A stretch of 33,973 bases of DNA from IMG/VR virus record IMGVR_UViG_3300032236_000744, positions 1 to 33,973 of that record; one strand, written 5' to 3'. Positions 1,958-12,552 of the stretch are shown in pieces. How positions within the stretch are numbered: the first letter of the stretch is position 1; each line of letters starts with the position of its first letter. Under the pieces are notes generated by a model. The model was not told the DNA's origin and did not search any database. It saw nothing but the letters and a program-made list of their open reading frames with translations. The DNA comes from a virus. The position numbers and the translations under genes are program-made.

Positions 1958-2520
1958 CAGTCGGTCTCCAATGCGTGCATGATTTGGTCGCGTGTGTAGT
2001 CGCGCAGTAGGACGCGGATGGCTTGGTTGATGTTGTCGCGTCGGTATCTGCCGTAGGGGTGGCGTATGCCTGTTTTGATGGCTGCGGCGTTGGGTGTGAT
2101 GGTCCCGTTGATAACGTCAGCTGCGATACCAGGGTTGTCGCGTTTGAGCCGAGCGACAACGTAAGACGCATCGTCTTGTTCGCTAACTTTCGTGTCACGA
2201 GAGTTAGACGGGACTGGACCGCCTTTAGCCGTTCGTGCTGGTGGGATCGCATCACGTAACAGTTCACGTACCGTCATGGCTGCTCGCCGATTGCGTGAAC
2301 GGTCCAACAGTGACTCAATGGCAAGCGCGCTGATTCCAACAAACTCGTCACAATAGGCAACAAATGTTTCGTAGCGTTGCGTGCCATGCGTTGGGTGCTC
2401 AAATTCGCGCCATGAGCCACTCTCAATGATTCGCGCCAACGCTGGTATCAGTTCTCCCGCACTACCGCTTGCAGCTCGATACACGTCCTGATTTTCAGTC
2501 CATCGTGGATCTACAGCCAT
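1957..2520 (-). CDS. Hypothetical protein with HTH-like C-terminal segment
   Basis: A 187-aa protein. The N-terminal half (about 1-75) contains the segment YETFVAYCDEF. The C-terminal half has LKRDNPGIAADVINGTITPNAAAIKTGI, a segment type common in phage and plasmid DNA-binding proteins in which a short helix-turn-helix follows an Arg/Lys-rich helix. The ATG at 2520 lies inside the helicase gene end (10-base overlap), so it is translationally coupled to the helicase. A regulatory or replication accessory role is inferred from position; no specific function is recognised. Confidence 0.6.
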   Translation of the reverse strand: MAVDPRWTENQDVYRAASGSAGELIPALARIIESGSWREFEHPTHGTQRYETFVAYCDEFVGISALAIESLLDRSRNRRAAMTVRELLRDAIPPARTAKGGPVPSNSRDTKVSEQDDASYVVARLKRDNPGIAADVINGTITPNAAAIKTGIRHPYGRYRRDNINQAIRVLLRDYTRDQIMHALETD

Positions 2521-4343
2521 GACTGCAATTCCTGGATTCGCTTGTCCAATGTTTCAAGTGACGCGTTGCCCAGGCGATCGCCGAACATTCGGTTTAGTTC
2601 CGCGTGGATGTGCCCGTAAGGCGTATCTGTATCGCGAGCGACCTTATTGACAAGTTGGTTGACCTGTTGCTTCTTGGCAACTCGTAGCGCGTCTTTTGTG
2701 TCGGTCTTTGCTGGCAGTTGAGCGTGTGCGATGGTCACTGCCGGTGCTTTGCCTAGTTCACGAATCAGCAAGGCAATGTCTGATGTGTGTGATCGTTGAA
2801 GCCCTTGAATCTTTTCTTGGTATGCCAATGCTTGGTTAAGTTCAGCCTCGGTTATTTGAACTCCACCAGGCATAAGAACGCTGTCTTGGATGATTGGCGA
2901 CGTGGAGATTGGTTGGATGATTTGAATATCGAAGTCTCTTGCTTCGGCCTTAGACATCAACTCAAGTTGCCCGACCTTGATCTCAAGTGCCAGATCAACT
3001 TCGTCTTCAATGTTTTTAGCAAGTTTGACGAGTTCGGGGAACGCGCCGATGTAAACGGTGGCCGTTAGTGAATCGTTGTCGCGGCGTACAGCTCGTCCAA
3101 CAATTTGCCGAAACCACATGTCTGTTGTCTTGTTGCTGGCATACACGATGATTGATAGCCGCGGGATGTCCACGCCTTCTGAAATCATGTCGACGGCGAC
3201 GATCCATCGTTGATGGCTTGTTCGAAATTGATCAATGACGGCGTTGGATGTGGCATCTTTTGAATGAACCACACTTGCCTTTTCGTTGGTGATCCGTTCA
3301 ATCATGACCGCGTAGGCTTCTGCTTTTTCGATGTCCGACGCAACGATTAAGCCACCTGCGTTGGGTTTTTCTTCACGCATCCGCTTGAGTTCGTTATCCG
3401 CATCGGTCATCAGACTTGTCATCCATGACTGGTTTTCTTGATACAGCGTTCGCATCAATGCGGCTTGCTGGTTTTTGTCAACGGTGGATGCGGTCGCTGA
3501 TATGAATGATGTTCCGCGAAGGTAGTTGCCTTGCCCATCCATGATTGGGAACCTGACAGGCCGGACGACTCCTTCGATGATGGCATCTTTGTATGAAATG
3601 CCGCCGTCACTAATTGCTCGGCCTTCGTCGTCATATTTGATGAATGGGATCTGGTTTCGATCTGTTCGGAATGGTGTTCCGGACAACATCAATCGACGGG
3701 TTACATGTTCAAACGCTGCAAGGAGGCTTGGACCCCACGAGGAGTTTTCTTCATCTTGACAGTGGTGAATCTCGTCAAAGATGACAAGCGTTTTGTTGGG
3801 CTTTGATGCAAGTTTCCGCCAGATATGCTTGTCTGAGTGCACTTGAGCGTAAGTTCCGACGACTCCGTTTGAGTCTTTCGGGATGAATCCGTGTTCGTTC
3901 TTGAACTCGGCGGTTACGTCTAGCCCGACGCCGTGCGCTGCTTTATTCCACTGCTTGCGCACTTGGTTGTTTGGCACGATCACGATGATGCGGTCGATGA
4001 TGCGTTGGTCAAACAGGATCTTCGCTGCCTTCATCGCCATCAACGTCTTGCCAGCGCCTGGACAAGCTGTGACAAGAAAATCATCGTGCGTTGTGCAGAA
4101 TGCTTCGACGGCTTGCTTTTGCCATACGTTGCGTGGATCTGACATGTTTTTGGTCCCCTTCTTTCGATTACATGTCGGGCACAATGCCTGCCCGTTGATT
4201 ACGTCTGTTTCACCACCGTTTGCGTGAGCGATGATGTGATCTGCGTGCCAGTCCGTTGGAAGTTCGACCTGACACATCTCGCATTTTCCATCGGCAATGA
4301 GCCACAAAGCTTCTCGTTGACGAGCTGTAAAGAATCGGCCCAT
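2511..4343 (-). CDS. HNH nuclease-SF2 helicase fusion
   Basis: A 610-aa protein with an N-terminal HNH module (C21-x2-C24, D35-H36, C55-x2-C58) fused to a superfamily 2 helicase. Helicase motifs seen: Walker A ACPGAGKT at 93-100, DEIH at 190-193 (motif II), SGTPFR at 221-226 (motif III), ISEGVDIPRL near 387-396 and QIVGRAVRR at 413-421 (motifs V and VI). The remaining ~110 C-terminal residues are helical. SF2 enzymes of this type translocate on or remodel DNA, and the HNH module would add nicking. In this compact early operon it may serve replication, recombination or attack on competing DNA. Family and motifs are clear; the biological role is inferred. Confidence 0.9.
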   Translation of the reverse strand: MGRFFTARQREALWLIADGKCEMCQVELPTDWHADHIIAHANGGETDVINGQALCPTCNRKKGTKNMSDPRNVWQKQAVEAFCTTHDDFLVTACPGAGKTLMAMKAAKILFDQRIIDRIIVIVPNNQVRKQWNKAAHGVGLDVTAEFKNEHGFIPKDSNGVVGTYAQVHSDKHIWRKLASKPNKTLVIFDEIHHCQDEENSSWGPSLLAAFEHVTRRLMLSGTPFRTDRNQIPFIKYDDEGRAISDGGISYKDAIIEGVVRPVRFPIMDGQGNYLRGTSFISATASTVDKNQQAALMRTLYQENQSWMTSLMTDADNELKRMREEKPNAGGLIVASDIEKAEAYAVMIERITNEKASVVHSKDATSNAVIDQFRTSHQRWIVAVDMISEGVDIPRLSIIVYASNKTTDMWFRQIVGRAVRRDNDSLTATVYIGAFPELVKLAKNIEDEVDLALEIKVGQLELMSKAEARDFDIQIIQPISTSPIIQDSVLMPGGVQITEAELNQALAYQEKIQGLQRSHTSDIALLIRELGKAPAVTIAHAQLPAKTDTKDALRVAKKQQVNQLVNKVARDTDTPYGHIHAELNRMFGDRLGNASLETLDKRIQELQSWL

Positions 4344-4733
4344 TTACGGCAAGTACCTGGTGCAGTCCCATCGGCCACCGGCCCACGGGCTCGGCCCGAA
4401 ATTGCGGAGCACTAACCAGAATCCGGCAGTCTGCACGGCTGCGGGCCATAGATGGATCGGCTTGTGTGCGTAGGGTGTGGATGCGAGGCGCAGCTTGGTG
4501 CGCAAGTAGTGATCCCACCAACGTGGTTCAAACTGATACAAGCCCTGGGCGAAATGACCGTCGTGTGAGACCACCGTGGGAATGTTTTCGCTCTCACGCT
4601 TACTCACGCAACGACGGAACCGTTCGTAACGACTGTCGTAATAGTGAGCGCTGACGCGTTTCCAATAGGGGACTGGTGCGCTCGTCGTGTGCAACGTGGC
4701 TGACAACAATGCGCCTGCAAGATGCTCGATCAT
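4344..4733 (-). CDS. Transglycosylase/Rpf-like muralytic protein
   Basis: A 129-aa protein with a lysozyme-like signature: FRRCVSKRESEN (catalytic Glu candidate E47), then a segment ending AQGLYQF and a Trp-rich stretch (PRWWDHYL), as in transglycosylase-like and resuscitation-promoting-factor domains that cleave peptidoglycan glycan strands. C42 and C124 could form a disulfide. The N-terminal 16 residues are mildly hydrophobic (MIEHLAGALLSATLH) but not a clear signal peptide. The start overlaps the upstream stop (ATGA) and the stop abuts the helicase start. It is in the early block rather than the lysis cassette, which is unusual. The remote family match is judged by eye. Confidence 0.65.
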   Translation of the reverse strand: MIEHLAGALLSATLHTTSAPVPYWKRVSAHYYDSRYERFRRCVSKRESENIPTVVSHDGHFAQGLYQFEPRWWDHYLRTKLRLASTPYAHKPIHLWPAAVQTAGFWLVLRNFGPSPWAGGRWDCTRYLP

Positions 4734-4924
4734 TCGGCCACCTCCACTCGTCCGCACAACACCCATCGCAGCCGGTCACATTCGAGCCGGTACACGGTTG
4801 TCGTGGTGGGGGTGAGTTGTGCGACCTTGAGCGTGCGGGCTAGGTCCGTTTCGGCTTGCAGGATGATTTCGTTGAATCGGGCGGCTGTGTCGTAGACGGG
4901 CCAACGCATTTCGTAACTGGTCAT
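4730..4924 (-). CDS. Small hypothetical protein
   Basis: A 64-aa protein beginning MTSYEMRWPVYDTAARFNE. It is mainly helical and has a C-terminal stretch with VYRLECDRLRWVLCG. Both ends overlap neighbours by four bases (ATGA with WhiB upstream and with the transglycosylase-like gene downstream), so it is part of the same translationally coupled chain. No family was recognised and no motif points to a function. Confidence 0.6.
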   Translation of the reverse strand: MTSYEMRWPVYDTAARFNEIILQAETDLARTLKVAQLTPTTTTVYRLECDRLRWVLCGRVEVAE

Positions 4925-6860: not shown

Positions 6861-7036
6861 GCGACACCATCCGAATCATCGTGACGGGTCGGAAAGTCAA
6901 CAACGTTGGATGGTTCAAGCTCGTCATCCAAGATTCGGTCGATCGTGTCCCGCGCATCAATCAGCAAGACGACGACGCTGGCAACGCCAACGGTTAACAG
7001 GATGATCAGCGGCAGACCGATGAATAGCCATTCCAT
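6857..7036 (-). CDS. Small single-TM membrane protein
   Basis: A 59-aa protein starting ATG at 7036 (MEWLFIGLPLIILLTVG). An N-terminal transmembrane helix of about 22 residues is followed by a charged tail (DARDTIDRILDDELEPS) likely to be cytoplasmic. Its start overlaps the upstream stop as TGATG and its stop overlaps the next start as ATGA, which is strong evidence that this unusually short frame is real. With the next membrane gene and the exported flavoprotein upstream it forms an envelope gene cluster. Function unknown. Confidence 0.72.
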   Translation of the reverse strand: MEWLFIGLPLIILLTVGVASVVVLLIDARDTIDRILDDELEPSNVVDFPTRHDDSDGVA

Positions 7037-7251
7037 CAGGCACCATCCCGTAACAACCAGGCGATGCCGTACAAAGCGATGGCGAGCAGGCCGATAACGC
7101 CGACATCGAGGATTGCGCGGGTCACAAACCCGTCCGTTATGATGTTGACGCCGGTCAACACTGCGACGAGCAGGATGATCGAGCGGATAAGCCGTAGGTC
7201 TGCGCGACGCCTGGCAGCTGGTGCAGACTTACGGTTTTTTGTTTGTTCCAT
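7036..7251 (-). CDS. Small two-TM membrane protein
   Basis: A 71-aa protein with a basic N-terminus (EQTKNRKSAPAARRRADLR), two hydrophobic helices (about 22-40 and 49-66) separated by a short loop, and a short RDGA end. ATG at 7251 is chosen because AAGGGG lies six bases upstream; a GTG three bases earlier is possible. The basic N-terminus predicts N-in topology. It follows the exported flavoprotein after 25 bases, so the two may be co-made at the membrane. It could be holin-like by shape, but it is far from the lysis genes. Confidence 0.7.
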   Translation of the reverse strand: MEQTKNRKSAPAARRRADLRLIRSIILLVAVLTGVNIITDGFVTRAILDVGVIGLLAIALYGIAWLLRDGA

Positions 7252-7276
7252 CACATACCCCTTCAGTTGTGGTGGT

Positions 7277-8155
7277 TTAGTAACCGGCTGCGGTCAGCGC
7301 GGTTTGAAGACTCTTTGAGAATGCGGTGGTCAGGATTGTTGCCCCGCTGACGGCGGCGATGTTCGCTGAGTTCGCCGTGATCGCCTCGTAGATCATCGTC
7401 GGATTCGACGGATCTGAATTCAGGCTGGCCGTCGTTGCCACGTTAAACTTGATGATGGTTTTACTCGTGGAATCCGTTGGTGCCGTGGGTGTTGCGAACG
7501 TAATCCCCGTGATCTTCCCGCCGGTAATCGTTGCCGTGACCTGAGCGCTATACGTCTCGTTAGCGTCAGGAATGAACACCGATTGGACCGAGCCGACATA
7601 CGTGCCATCAACGATCGTCTTCGACGGTGATGAGCTTGGCGTTGCTGTTGGTGTAACGGTTGGCGATACGGTCGGTGATGGGCTCGCAGCCGGTCCCACA
7701 ACGGTCTTAGCCGTTACCCGCGCCGCGTTCTGCTGATCCTTCAGGATCGTTGTTGAACACGTGTACTTCCACGTTTCGCCAGGATCAAGCTGCTTGTTGG
7801 CGTTCGGATCGGATGACGCAACGAACGTGACGGGCTCACACTTATCATCGGTGACCACGACCTGGTTAAATGCCGTGTCTGTCGTCAGGTTCTGGACGAG
7901 GTACGTGTACGTGATCCGTGAACCAGGCGTTACCGTTTGTGGTGCCACCGAGGTCGTCAACGACAACTGAGGCGACCGAGCGTAAGCCCACGTGTTTGCT
8001 GATGCGGTGACATCCTGCGGCACTGTCAGATCAGTGTTCGGCGGCAGGGGAGCGGACGGGTCAGCGTGCGACAACGCGACCTGATTAAAAGCGACCAACG
8101 CGCCGAAACCTGCAACGGTCCCAGCAGCAGCCGCAGCCAAACGTGACTTCTTCAT
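7277..8155 (-). CDS. Exported DUF11/FMN-binding-domain protein
   Basis: A 292-aa protein. The ATG at 8155 has GGAG seven bases upstream and overlaps the previous stop (ATGA). A signal peptide (KKSR, then an Ala/Gly-rich hydrophobic core, cleavage likely after SHA near residue 31) directs export. Residues about 55-150 form a DUF11-type beta-sandwich (PGSRITYTYLVQN...LDPGETWKYTC, with a possible C106-C133 disulfide). A Pro/Ser/Thr linker follows (about 158-180). The C-terminal 110 residues match the FMN-binding domain of NqrC/RnfG type: DGTYVGS, then ITGGKITGI, and a final VSGATILTTAF whose SGAT Thr (T273) is the expected site of covalent FMN attachment by host ApbE. Flavin domains are known from bacterial redox systems; a phage copy is unusual. 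Role unknown. Confidence 0.85.
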   Translation of the reverse strand: MKKSRLAAAAAGTVAGFGALVAFNQVALSHADPSAPLPPNTDLTVPQDVTASANTWAYARSPQLSLTTSVAPQTVTPGSRITYTYLVQNLTTDTAFNQVVVTDDKCEPVTFVASSDPNANKQLDPGETWKYTCSTTILKDQQNAARVTAKTVVGPAASPSPTVSPTVTPTATPSSSPSKTIVDGTYVGSVQSVFIPDANETYSAQVTATITGGKITGITFATPTAPTDSTSKTIIKFNVATTASLNSDPSNPTMIYEAITANSANIAAVSGATILTTAFSKSLQTALTAAGY

Positions 8156-8463
8156 GAGCAATCTCCATGATTCGGATTAGTGACAGAACGCAAATACCTG
8201 CGCTCATCGCTAGGCACCAACAACACGAGATGCCCGCAAATCTCACCCCTAATAACGCCGGTCATCGCGTCAGGGATCGGATCGTGATCAAACACCGAAC
8301 GCAACGACTGGCAGATCGCCAAAAAATCGCACTCGTCCGATTGAGGTTGCACCACGGTGCAATGCGTCGAAATTTGGAAGTCAACGCAGTCGCTTAACGA
8401 CTCGTTGCCGATCGCGTCGCGCATCTTCTCAAAGGCAAGCTGCGCCGGATATAACGACGCCAT
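8152..8463 (-). CDS. Hypothetical protein
   Basis: A 103-aa protein (MASLYPAQLAFEKMRDAIG...). It contains five cysteines and a mixed alpha/beta-looking core (MTGVIRGEICGHLVLLVPSDERRYL). ATG at 8463 overlaps the HTH gene stop (TGATG); a GTG at 8466 (GTGA overlap) is equally plausible. It ends with a four-base overlap into the flavoprotein gene. No family was recognised. Its place as second gene after the operator region suggests early expression. Confidence 0.6.
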   Translation of the reverse strand: MASLYPAQLAFEKMRDAIGNESLSDCVDFQISTHCTVVQPQSDECDFLAICQSLRSVFDHDPIPDAMTGVIRGEICGHLVLLVPSDERRYLRSVTNPNHGDCS

Positions 8464-8648
8464 CACGCGACCCGCTGCGATTCAGCCAACGCCAACACAG
8501 CAGCCAACTCGTACCTGGCATAACCGCCATCAGTACGAAACGCCGGCCGAATCAAACCCTTAGCGACCCAACGGTCAACCGTGCGCGGCGCAACCTTGAG
8601 AATGCGTGCCGCTTCGGTCGTACCGATGTACCCGTTCGGCCCATGCAT
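8463..8648 (-). CDS. Excisionase/MerR-like HTH DNA-binding protein
   Basis: A 61-aa protein that is essentially one winged HTH: YIGTTEAARILKVAPRTVDRWVAKGLI followed by a wing (RTDGGYARYELAAVLAL). It has the layout of the helix-turn-helix domain 17/excisionase group used by phage recombination-directionality factors and small regulators. ATG at 8648 has GGAGG seven bases upstream. It is the first gene of the leftward early operon and directly abuts a palindrome cluster at 8659-8726, so autoregulation is a natural inference. With no integrase in the window, a transcriptional role is favoured over excision. Confidence 0.85.
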   Translation of the reverse strand: MHGPNGYIGTTEAARILKVAPRTVDRWVAKGLIRPAFRTDGGYARYELAAVLALAESQRVA

Positions 8649-8726: not shown

Positions 8727-8852
8727 GCGTGCGTGGATTATGTCAAGTTAGAGAACCCGCCCCTTTATCAAGATCATCGTGCAATCCTGACGAACAACGA
8801 AATTAGCACCTCTTTGTTGTCGGTCAAGCGCGACACGCCGTGGGTGGGTGAA

Positions 8853-9143
8853 ATGCGCGAGAAACAGTGGCTGCGAGCCGTCTGGTTAGAGATGCGCGCC
8901 CAAAGCATTCCCAACATTCCACATTACGAGGATTCCGTTTTCCCGAAATTCGCTCAGCGACATGGGTTTTCGCCATATTCGCCTGCTCGGTTAGCTCGTA
9001 TTGAGGCTATGTATGCAGAGTATGCGGCTCGAGCGAACGAGCCTGAGCCTGTTTTGGCTGAGATTATTGAGTTCCCGCAGGAGCCGAGCGCGGAAGTTGT
9101 CGATTTGCGTCTTGAGCGTTTACGTCGTCGGGGGATTTCTTAG
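8853..9143 (+). CDS. Hypothetical protein, first gene of the plus-strand pair
   Basis: A 96-aa protein from ATG 8853 (MREKQWLRAVWLEMRAQSI). The frame is open back to a GTG at 8733, giving 136 aa. Neither start has a strong ribosome binding site; the G-rich stretch before 8853 is slightly better. The sequence is helical, with an HYEDSVFPKFAQRHG segment and a Glu-rich, then Arg-rich, C-terminus (LRLERLRRRGIS). No family was recognised. It shares orientation with the Ltp lipoprotein gene 121 bases downstream and faces the HTH gene across the operator cluster, so a regulator or immunity-linked protein is plausible. Confidence 0.6.
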   Translation: MREKQWLRAVWLEMRAQSIPNIPHYEDSVFPKFAQRHGFSPYSPARLARIEAMYAEYAARANEPEPVLAEIIEFPQEPSAEVVDLRLERLRRRGIS

Positions 9144-9264: not shown

Positions 9265-9897
9265 GTGCGCGCATCACGGATCGTTGTTGGGATAAGTGTG
9301 GTTTTGTCGGTGGTGTTGCTTTCCGCTTGTGGAGTGGCTGACTCGTCATCAGGATCGTCGGATGCGCCAACGCCTGCATCGTCGGGTGCTGCGCCTGTAA
9401 CGTCGACGGCGCCGACTCCTGACACGCCCCAGGGAACGACGGCTCAGATGAACGCGTTGCAGTCAGCGCAGTCGTACTTGTCGATGGGTAGTGGGTTCAG
9501 TGAGAAAGGTTTGTTGGGTCAGTTAACCTCGACGGCTGCTGATGGGTATTCGAAGGCTGATGCCGAGTGGGCTGTCAAGAATAGTGGCGCTGATTGGAAT
9601 GCTCAGGCGTTGGAAGCTGCGAAGGGTTATTTGGATAGCGGTGGGGGTATGAGTGAGAAGGGTTTGTTGGATCAGTTAACGTCGTCGGCGGGTTCTGGGT
9701 TTACGCAGGCTCAAGCCGAGTATGCGATTAAGAACAGTCGGGCTGATTGGAACGCGCAAGCCCTCGAGGCTGCGAAGGGTTACATGACGATGGGTGGCTT
9801 CAGTAAGTCGTCGTTGATGGATCAGTTGACGTCTTCGGCTGGGGCTGGGTTTACGAAGGCTCAGGCTGCTTATGCGGTTTCGAAGGTTGGTTTGTAG
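9265..9897 (+). CDS. Ltp-type lipoprotein, probable superinfection exclusion protein
   Basis: A 210-aa protein. GTG at 9265 is chosen because GGGGAG lies five bases upstream. A signal sequence ends in the lipobox LSAC (C22), predicting lipid anchoring on the outer face of the membrane. A Ser/Thr/Pro linker leads to three tandem 51-residue helical repeats of the host-surface lipoprotein (Ltp) family, starting at bases 9454, 9607 and 9760; units share GLL.QLTS, a GF/GY and (A/E)YA(V/I)(K/S). In Streptococcus phage TP-J34, an Ltp protein blocks DNA injection of incoming phage by acting on their tape measure protein. The gene is isolated on the plus strand and followed by a convergent terminator, fitting independent expression. 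Family call strong, role inferred by homology. Confidence 0.88.
   Translation: MRASRIVVGISVVLSVVLLSACGVADSSSGSSDAPTPASSGAAPVTSTAPTPDTPQGTTAQMNALQSAQSYLSMGSGFSEKGLLGQLTSTAADGYSKADAEWAVKNSGADWNAQALEAAKGYLDSGGGMSEKGLLDQLTSSAGSGFTQAQAEYAIKNSRADWNAQALEAAKGYMTMGGFSKSSLMDQLTSSAGAGFTKAQAAYAVSKVGL
9454..9894 (+). repeat. Three tandem 51-codon Ltp repeats
   Basis: Units begin at 9454, 9607 and 9760, exactly 153 bases apart. Units 2 and 3 are very similar at both DNA and protein level (both contain CTGCGAAGGGTTA), indicating recent duplication. Unit 3 lacks the last few residues. Copy number could change by recombination. Confidence 0.9.
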
Positions 9898-9945: not shown

Positions 9946-9968
9946 ACCCCCACCAGATCGGTGGGGGT
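9946..9968 (-). terminator. Intrinsic terminator between convergent genes
   Basis: A perfect 9-bp stem, ACCCCCACC (9946-9954) with GGTGGGGGT (9960-9968), and a 5-base loop. On the minus strand it is followed by CATTTTTCTT, a proper U tract, so it ends leftward transcription from the exonuclease block. The stem can also slow rightward transcription from the lipoprotein gene, 49 bases upstream. Confidence 0.85.
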
Positions 9969-11661: not shown

Positions 11662-12552
11662 TTAATGCAGGCCGTTTGAGGTCGCCCAGGCGGTGAGCTC
11701 GTTGGCGACGCGCTTGCAGTTCGGGTTGTAGTGATGCGCGAGCGCCCATGAGGCAACCGCTGACCATAGAGCTGCATCACTGACTGGGGACGGGCTCGGC
11801 GATGGTGACGGTGTCGGTGTAGGTGTTGGTGGCGTAGGCGTGGGGATTGGTTGCGGCGTCGGTGCAGGCTTAGACAATGGCGTAAAAATCGTCACATCAC
11901 CCTGCTCGCTCAACAACCGTTGCAACATCGCCCAAGTCATCCATGCGCGACCTTCAACGCCCCAGCTCGTACCCCACGAGTTCTGCATCCAAACGCGTTG
12001 GTTGGGTACGTCGATCTCGTCGAGAATGTATTCGTGACCCCCAGCGATGCTATCCCCGGCGTTGATGGTGAGTTCACCGTCGGTGGTGGGGTTGAACATG
12101 CCTGAGTACCAGTTGGTGCCGACGATGACGGGTCCGTGTGTGCTGAGAGCTGCGAGCGCATCATTGAGGGTGAATGCGTGTTGGTAGCCGGATATCCATC
12201 CTCGGGTGACGGCGATTTTTGCCCCGCTGATCCCGTCACTGCCGGTGTCGGTGGGTGGGTATTGTCCTGGTGCGCTATCAATCTTTGTCGCATCGGAGTA
12301 GACGCTGATCGCGTCCTGCTCGGTCAGAGTAATGCCGGTCAACTGATCGAAGTATGGCGAGGTCATGACGGCGCCGCTGACCGCATTCCCAACGCACGAG
12401 CCGAGTTGGCCTTGATCATAGGTTGGTACGTGTCGCGTCCAACGCTGTGATACGAGGGTTGATCCCTCATCGGCCTTGTATGGGTAGGCGAGGCTGCGTG
12501 GATCGTGGTTGACGTGACGGCCTAACGGGTACGTTGATACCACCGTGATCAT
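11662..12552 (-). CDS. Papain-like (C1) cysteine protease, lysis cassette
   Basis: A 296-aa protein with a papain active site: YDQGQLGSCVGNA (oxyanion Q47, catalytic C53), GGHEYIL (H173) and QNSWGTSWG (N191). A Pro/Thr/Ser tract (about 229-257) links to a C-terminal helical domain (ALWSAVASWALAHHYNPNC) that may bind the cell wall or virion. There is no evident signal peptide. A GTG at 12543 is an alternative start with better spacing from the AAGGG element. It ends the holin-endolysin cluster. C1 peptidases cut peptide bonds; the substrate could be a wall peptide or a host surface protein. Family call strong, target unknown. Confidence 0.88.
   Translation of the reverse strand: MITVVSTYPLGRHVNHDPRSLAYPYKADEGSTLVSQRWTRHVPTYDQGQLGSCVGNAVSGAVMTSPYFDQLTGITLTEQDAISVYSDATKIDSAPGQYPPTDTGSDGISGAKIAVTRGWISGYQHAFTLNDALAALSTHGPVIVGTNWYSGMFNPTTDGELTINAGDSIAGGHEYILDEIDVPNQRVWMQNSWGTSWGVEGRAWMTWAMLQRLLSEQGDVTIFTPLSKPAPTPQPIPTPTPPTPTPTPSPSPSPSPVSDAALWSAVASWALAHHYNPNCKRVANELTAWATSNGLH

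Follow-up and report, generated by a model that had tools for sequence, protein, structure and literature searches.

Bacteria and archaea are known to flavinylate extracytosolic proteins, and a 2021 survey of 31,910 genomes makes no mention of phages (PMC8238504). The motif linked to the flavin transferase ApbE reads D-x-x-[ST]-G-A-[ST] (PMC12052999). NqrC and RnfG, which belong to the FMN_bind superfamily and carry covalent FMN on the motif Thr, are membrane redox pump subunits with an intact motif. SaFMN3 of Streptomyces azureus (PDB 8P2A) is a chromosomally encoded protein with three exported small FMN_bind domains, which carry the SGAT Thr and are joined by low-complexity linkers. No paper on a phage FMN_bind protein was found in the literature searched.

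Here we describe such a protein, encoded in a 33,973-nucleotide stretch of viral DNA (IMG/VR record IMGVR_UViG_3300032236_000744; hereafter, the window). A first-pass annotation, made by reading the sequence, had proposed an exported phage protein in which a covalent-FMN domain is combined with a DUF11 domain. Our analysis bears out this reading of the domains, which is an unusual one. The mechanistic interpretation proposed alongside it is partly supported.

The phage, the gene and its operon

The contig carrying the gene also encodes a large terminase, portal, protease, major capsid, tape measure, tail and endolysin proteins, together with a WhiB regulator and a DNA-polymerase-type exonuclease. 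The carrier is a genuine, uncultured actinobacterial siphophage, and the presence of capsid, portal, terminase, tape measure and WhiB genes on the same contig bears out the earlier statement that the protein is phage-encoded. Because the capsid (31% identity) and the terminase (39% identity) match those of actinobacterial phages, the host is most likely an actinobacterium. The window may be a fragment, and no integrase was noticed in it; PADLOC defence models gave no match. Elsewhere on the contig, positions 2511-4343 (minus strand) encode one 610-aa protein in which an HNH endonuclease domain is fused to a helicase.

The open reading frame at positions 7277-8155 on the minus strand (7280-8155 without the stop codon) is confirmed as a real gene. 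It starts with an ATG at 8155 and encodes 292 amino acids followed by a stop. A ribosome-binding site, GGAG, is located 7 bases 5′ of the ATG (8163-8166, minus strand), and the gene overlaps the preceding gene by 4 bp (ATGA). This translationally coupled upstream gene (8152-8466, minus strand) encodes a 104-aa protein with no family match and is itself preceded by the first gene of the operon, which encodes an excisionase/MerR-like helix-turn-helix (HTH) protein (8463-8648, minus strand; PHROG 66, E 1.6e-8; PHROG 2474, E 3.9e-8). The next gene downstream encodes a 72-aa candidate small membrane protein (7036-7254, minus strand), again with no family match, and further genes lead to a RusA-like resolvase and WhiB. 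This setting looks like an early operon, outside the structural genes.

Facing the operon, 1.1 kb from the gene for the FMN_bind protein, is a gene for an Ltp-type superinfection-exclusion lipoprotein (9265-9897, plus strand) with the lipobox LLSAC and three Ltp repeats (PF07553, E 1.7e-47; PHROG 4980 'superinfection exclusion', E 1.1e-56). The Ltp family has been described in the Streptococcus thermophilus phage TP-J34 (PMC3952083). Its members are phage-encoded and exported to the host surface, as is predicted for the FMN_bind protein, but they have a lipid anchor and no sequence relation to it. Because this phage already exports Ltp to the host surface, a surface role for the FMN_bind protein during infection or lysogeny, whether in redox chemistry or in binding, is the natural reading. 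A 136-aa open reading frame without a family match (8733-9143, plus strand) separates the HTH and Ltp genes, and an inverted repeat near 9946-9968, after the Ltp gene, looks like a terminator.

Domain architecture and the flavinylation motif

From its N terminus, the protein is composed of a signal peptide, a short Pro-rich segment, a DUF7507/DUF11 domain, a Ser/Pro/Thr linker (residues 154-178; 7622-7696, minus strand) and the FMN_bind domain. The signal peptide (residues 1-31; 8063-8155, minus strand), judged from hydropathy and by eye, is of the Sec type. Its sequence, MKKSRLAAAAAGTVAGFGALVAFNQVALSHA followed by DPS, contains KKSR and then a hydrophobic stretch that leads to the predicted cleavage site between SHA and DPS, where the homologue described below has ALA and DPS. 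The DUF7507/DUF11 domain (residues 61-153; 7697-7975, minus strand) matches DUF7507 (PF24346, E 1.3e-8) with 35.3 bits, compared with 26.2 bits in the homologue (cut-off 27). The match to DUF11 itself (PF01345, E 2.8e-4) reaches 21.6 bits, under the cut-off of 24.6. The signal peptide, DUF11-type domain and linker read earlier from the sequence all stand, with PF24346 as the profile that exceeds its threshold. Cys106 and Cys133 of this domain are also kept in the homologue.

The C-terminal domain (residues 179-292; 7280-7621, minus strand) matches the FMN_bind profile PF04205 over residues 205-287 with E 3.3e-4 and 21.7 bits in hmmscan (cut-off 22), and with 22.8 bits, over that cut-off, in a genome search. 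For the homologue the score is 24.7 bits. Since this leaves the Pfam assignment of the window protein marginal, the FMN_bind call was tested by other routes. A profile of bacterial domains alone, gathered from public genomes with the phage domains and a typed consensus in the seed, found the window open reading frame with 44.1 bits (E 6.5e-13) and the homologue with 55.0 bits (E 2.5e-16), and matched nothing further among all open reading frames of both phages. A profile of the two phage domains matched 8P2A, which is a crystallised covalent-FMN domain, with E 2.8e-8. The fold of the domain was also modelled (pLDDT 76), from an alignment of 43 rows that included bacterial FMN_bind rows, so that the model is not fully independent of the profile tests. 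Among PDB structures the model again matches 8P2A best (TM 0.78 on the target). Its first PDB matches, 8P2A, 3O6U and 8P2B, are all FMN_bind structures, and the model has the three-strand sheet, the two helices that follow and the motif before the last helix that characterize FMN_bind. Whole-protein AlphaFold modelling with two rows was poor (pLDDT 43). The profile, PDB and fold tests depend on one another to some extent, whereas the Pfam result is independent of them, and these profile and model comparisons confirm the predicted membership of the C-terminal domain in FMN_bind. The earlier assignment to the NqrC/RnfG type holds at the level of the family, but the closest solved relatives are small actinobacterial and clostridial domains (8P2A, 3O6U, 8P2B). 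NqrC and RnfG were the closest relatives in no search, and no other Nqr or Rnf subunit genes occur among the family matches and open reading frames of the window.

Alignment to 202 bacterial domains and 8P2A places the predicted flavin attachment motif at S270-G-A-T273 (7337-7348, minus strand; T273 at 7337-7339). Both phages retain the [ST]-G-A-[ST] portion with its acceptor Thr, and SGATYTS is complete in the homologue. The opening Asp of the full ApbE motif is replaced by Ala in both phages (A267 in the window copy; 7355-7357, minus strand), a position occupied by Asp in 192 of the 202 bacterial relatives and by Ala in one. Thus, the flavinylation motif claimed by the first-pass annotation is present as SGAT with T273, but not in its complete form. 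In addition, L275 (7331-7333, minus strand) takes the place of a conserved Thr/Ser at the +2 position, which is Thr in the homologue and in 198 bacterial relatives, Ser in four and Leu in none of the 202. The equivalent residue of 8P2A, Thr74, hydrogen-bonds flavin N3 (PMC10339131). The motif Asp has been called 'essential' (PMC10722498), and its replacement by Ala in fumarate reductase had 'only minor effects', as reviewed in PMC12052999. The loss of the motif Asp and the Leu at +2 in the window copy weaken the redox reading.

In both phages, the loop of the flavin-stacking Tyr is extended by an insertion of 6-7 residues, which is 92% identical between them. Because of this insertion, the equivalent of Tyr14 of 8P2A is ambiguous in the alignment, and insertions likewise obscure first-helix residues in the comparison with the flavin contacts of 8P2A (Tyr14, Ser42, Ile45 and Thr74). 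Neither phage contig encodes ApbE, which also weakens the redox reading, and flavinylation would therefore need a host enzyme. ApbE is present in all four tested bacterial genomes with related FMN_bind genes, and 30 of the 198 genomes searched from one actinobacterial class have FMN_bind, so the host could supply the transferase. Judging from these sequences, flavinylation of the phage protein by host ApbE is plausible, at near even odds.

A second phage and the sampled bacteria

The search of viral databases for the same domain pair that had been suggested earlier yielded a single homologue among 2.9 million IMG/VR contigs. This protein (P0002), on IMGVR_UViG_3300032236_000643 (70,410 bases), is 69% identical to the window protein over its whole length. 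Scanning IMG/VR with full-length proteins, with the FMN domain by itself and with alignments led by bacterial sequences gave no further viral relatives, and the fusion protein has no match in 50,697 cultured phages and 72,556 plasmids. Another 14 IMG/VR matches, to the motif pattern DxVSGATYTS, were rejected as chance hits in other proteins, with a best single-domain FMN-profile score of 7.2 bits.

Identity between the two copies is 78% in the FMN domain, 70% in the DUF11 domain and 52% in the linker, which is, after the signal peptide, the least conserved stretch. For the FMN domain, dN is 0.18 and dS is 2.3, which gives a dN/dS of about 0.08, an approximate ratio because dS is near saturation. 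The FMN domain is under strong purifying selection, more so than the DUF11 domain or the linker.

By gene comparison, the second phage is otherwise largely unrelated to the window phage. Their head genes do not match, and the other clear genes in common are those for a C1-type peptidase (53%), an endolysin (41%), a holin (46%) and WhiB (30%), along with a few weaker matches. Both phages carry the fusion gene in a non-structural operon, and in the second phage an integrase and a repressor-type HTH gene are nearby (a tyrosine integrase at L002:5438-6553, minus strand, with an HTH_26 gene). Ltp is absent from the second phage; therefore, Ltp and the FMN_bind protein are not a conserved pair. The C1 (papain)-type peptidase is encoded at 11662-12552 (minus strand) in the window and at L002:10896-11708 (plus strand) in the second phage. 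It has Cys, His and Asn motifs, a P/T linker and a C-terminal extension, and the relatives it has in 54 records of cultured phages, most of them actinophages, correspond to the catalytic part only. Each phage also encodes a small exported-looking protein with a lysozyme-like look (4344-4766, minus strand, in the window; L002:9454-9879, plus strand, in the second phage). Neither protein has a Pfam match, and a common exported lysozyme-like gene was rejected because the two show no similarity to each other.

In a search of 396 Actinomycetota genomes, the proteins matched by the DUF11 half were large and of surface type, those matched by the FMN half were distinct FMN_bind proteins, and no match spanned both halves. 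Likewise, no protein carries both halves in 240 Patescibacteria-side genomes, and the fetched loci hold no single open reading frame with both. Because the halves match different proteins in the sampled bacteria, the DUF11-FMN_bind fusion looks phage-specific as far as sampled. A tree of 43 FMN domains puts the two phage copies beside patescibacterial rows (99/94), but on a branch of 1.6, too long to name the donor.

Possible functions and relation to known systems

We favor, with a probability of about 0.45, a reading in which the protein is expressed early or in lysogeny, resides in the envelope, is flavinylated by the host on Thr273 and acts as a tethered redox carrier. A temperate-type actinobacterial phage would express it early in infection or from the prophage, with an excisionase-like regulator heading the operon. 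The Sec pathway would then export the protein with cleavage presumably after Ala31, and the disulfide-capable DUF11-type domain would place it in the cell envelope, probably at the surface. There, host ApbE, whose presence we assume, would attach FMN to Thr273 of the FMN_bind domain on its flexible linker, and this domain might carry electrons alongside the electron-transfer proteins of the host envelope, perhaps to the benefit of the phage. No membrane electron donor was noticed among the genes of either phage. We consider it possible, but less likely than not, that a surface-anchored covalent flavoprotein dependent on host ApbE plugs a phage electron carrier into the host envelope redox chain during infection or lysogeny.

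It is possible, and we suggest it tentatively, that the FMN_bind fold is kept without flavinylation, as a stable binding scaffold within a protein that binds at, or shields, the surface of an infected or lysogenic cell and might serve, for example, in superinfection exclusion. The loss of the motif Asp in both phages and of the +2 Thr/Ser in one is consistent with this proposal. So are the beta1-beta2 hairpin insertion, which is phage-specific, 92% identical between the phages and could form a new binding surface, the neighboring gene for an Ltp superinfection-exclusion lipoprotein and the matches of the DUF11-type half to large actinobacterial surface-type proteins. However, the motif retains its S, G, A and T, YTS is preserved in the homologue as well, replacing Asp by Ala had little effect in one protein in which it was tried (PMC12052999), and the exclusion link is not conserved, given that the second phage is without Ltp.

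Other explanations are less appealing. In the second phage (G001), the C1-type cysteine peptidase gene is directly 3′ of the FMN gene, and peptidase, endolysin and holin are all common to both phages, as might be expected of an exported lysis- or cell-wall-associated protein that works with the peptidase. We regard this role as improbable because the window peptidase is 3.5 kb away, beside the endolysin, and because its relatives occur in cultured phages, none of which match the FMN_bind protein; the peptidase therefore does not need that protein. Beta-sandwich domains decorate many capsids and tails, but a virion-associated decoration protein is highly improbable for a gene product that has a signal peptide and is encoded in an early-operon position, away from the head and tail genes, in both phages. 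Least credible of all is that a host gene was assigned to a viral contig by mistake. Although FMN_bind is common in bacteria, translational coupling ties this gene to early genes of the phage, its contig also holds head, tail and lysis genes, it recurs in a second, different phage contig, and the fusion is found in no sampled bacterial genome.

If the tethered redox carrier reading is true, a phage flavin protein fused to a surface domain would mean that envelope electron transfer is open to intervention by phages. If flavin is absent, the protein would be an unambiguous example of a phage turning a redox fold to surface binding. Flavodoxins bind FMN non-covalently and differ in fold and location from the FMN_bind protein. 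The flavodoxin of phage 0305phi8-36 is also a phage-encoded FMN protein, but its family is unrelated to that of the window protein (PMC9405906).

An FMN_bind protein of a phage is already in public databases. This 'FMN-binding' entry in UniProt from an uncultured Caudovirales phage (A0A6J5KPU6) is the only significant match among viral predicted structures, with 34% identity and a TM of 0.68, but its 171 aa in all are too short for an added DUF11 domain. The earlier remark that no known phage system has the present architecture is therefore sound as to the combination, which we found in a single further phage and in none of the bacteria sampled, but not as to phage FMN_bind proteins in general. 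The nearest tree rows, across a long branch, are exported patescibacterial FMN_bind proteins of 140-230 aa (L006, L007, L009-L011 and L034). Like the phage protein, they have an N-terminal membrane/export segment, a P/T-rich linker and one FMN_bind domain; unlike it, they have neither DUF11 nor the hairpin insertion, and identity over the aligned domain is 38-50%. SaFMN3, the best PDB match by both sequence and fold, is also exported and likewise carries the SGAT Thr and low-complexity linkers, but it lacks DUF11, has three FMN domains rather than one and retains both the motif Asp and the +2 Thr. Set beside these systems, the window protein is a phage-borne, domain-fused variant of exported FMN_bind proteins.
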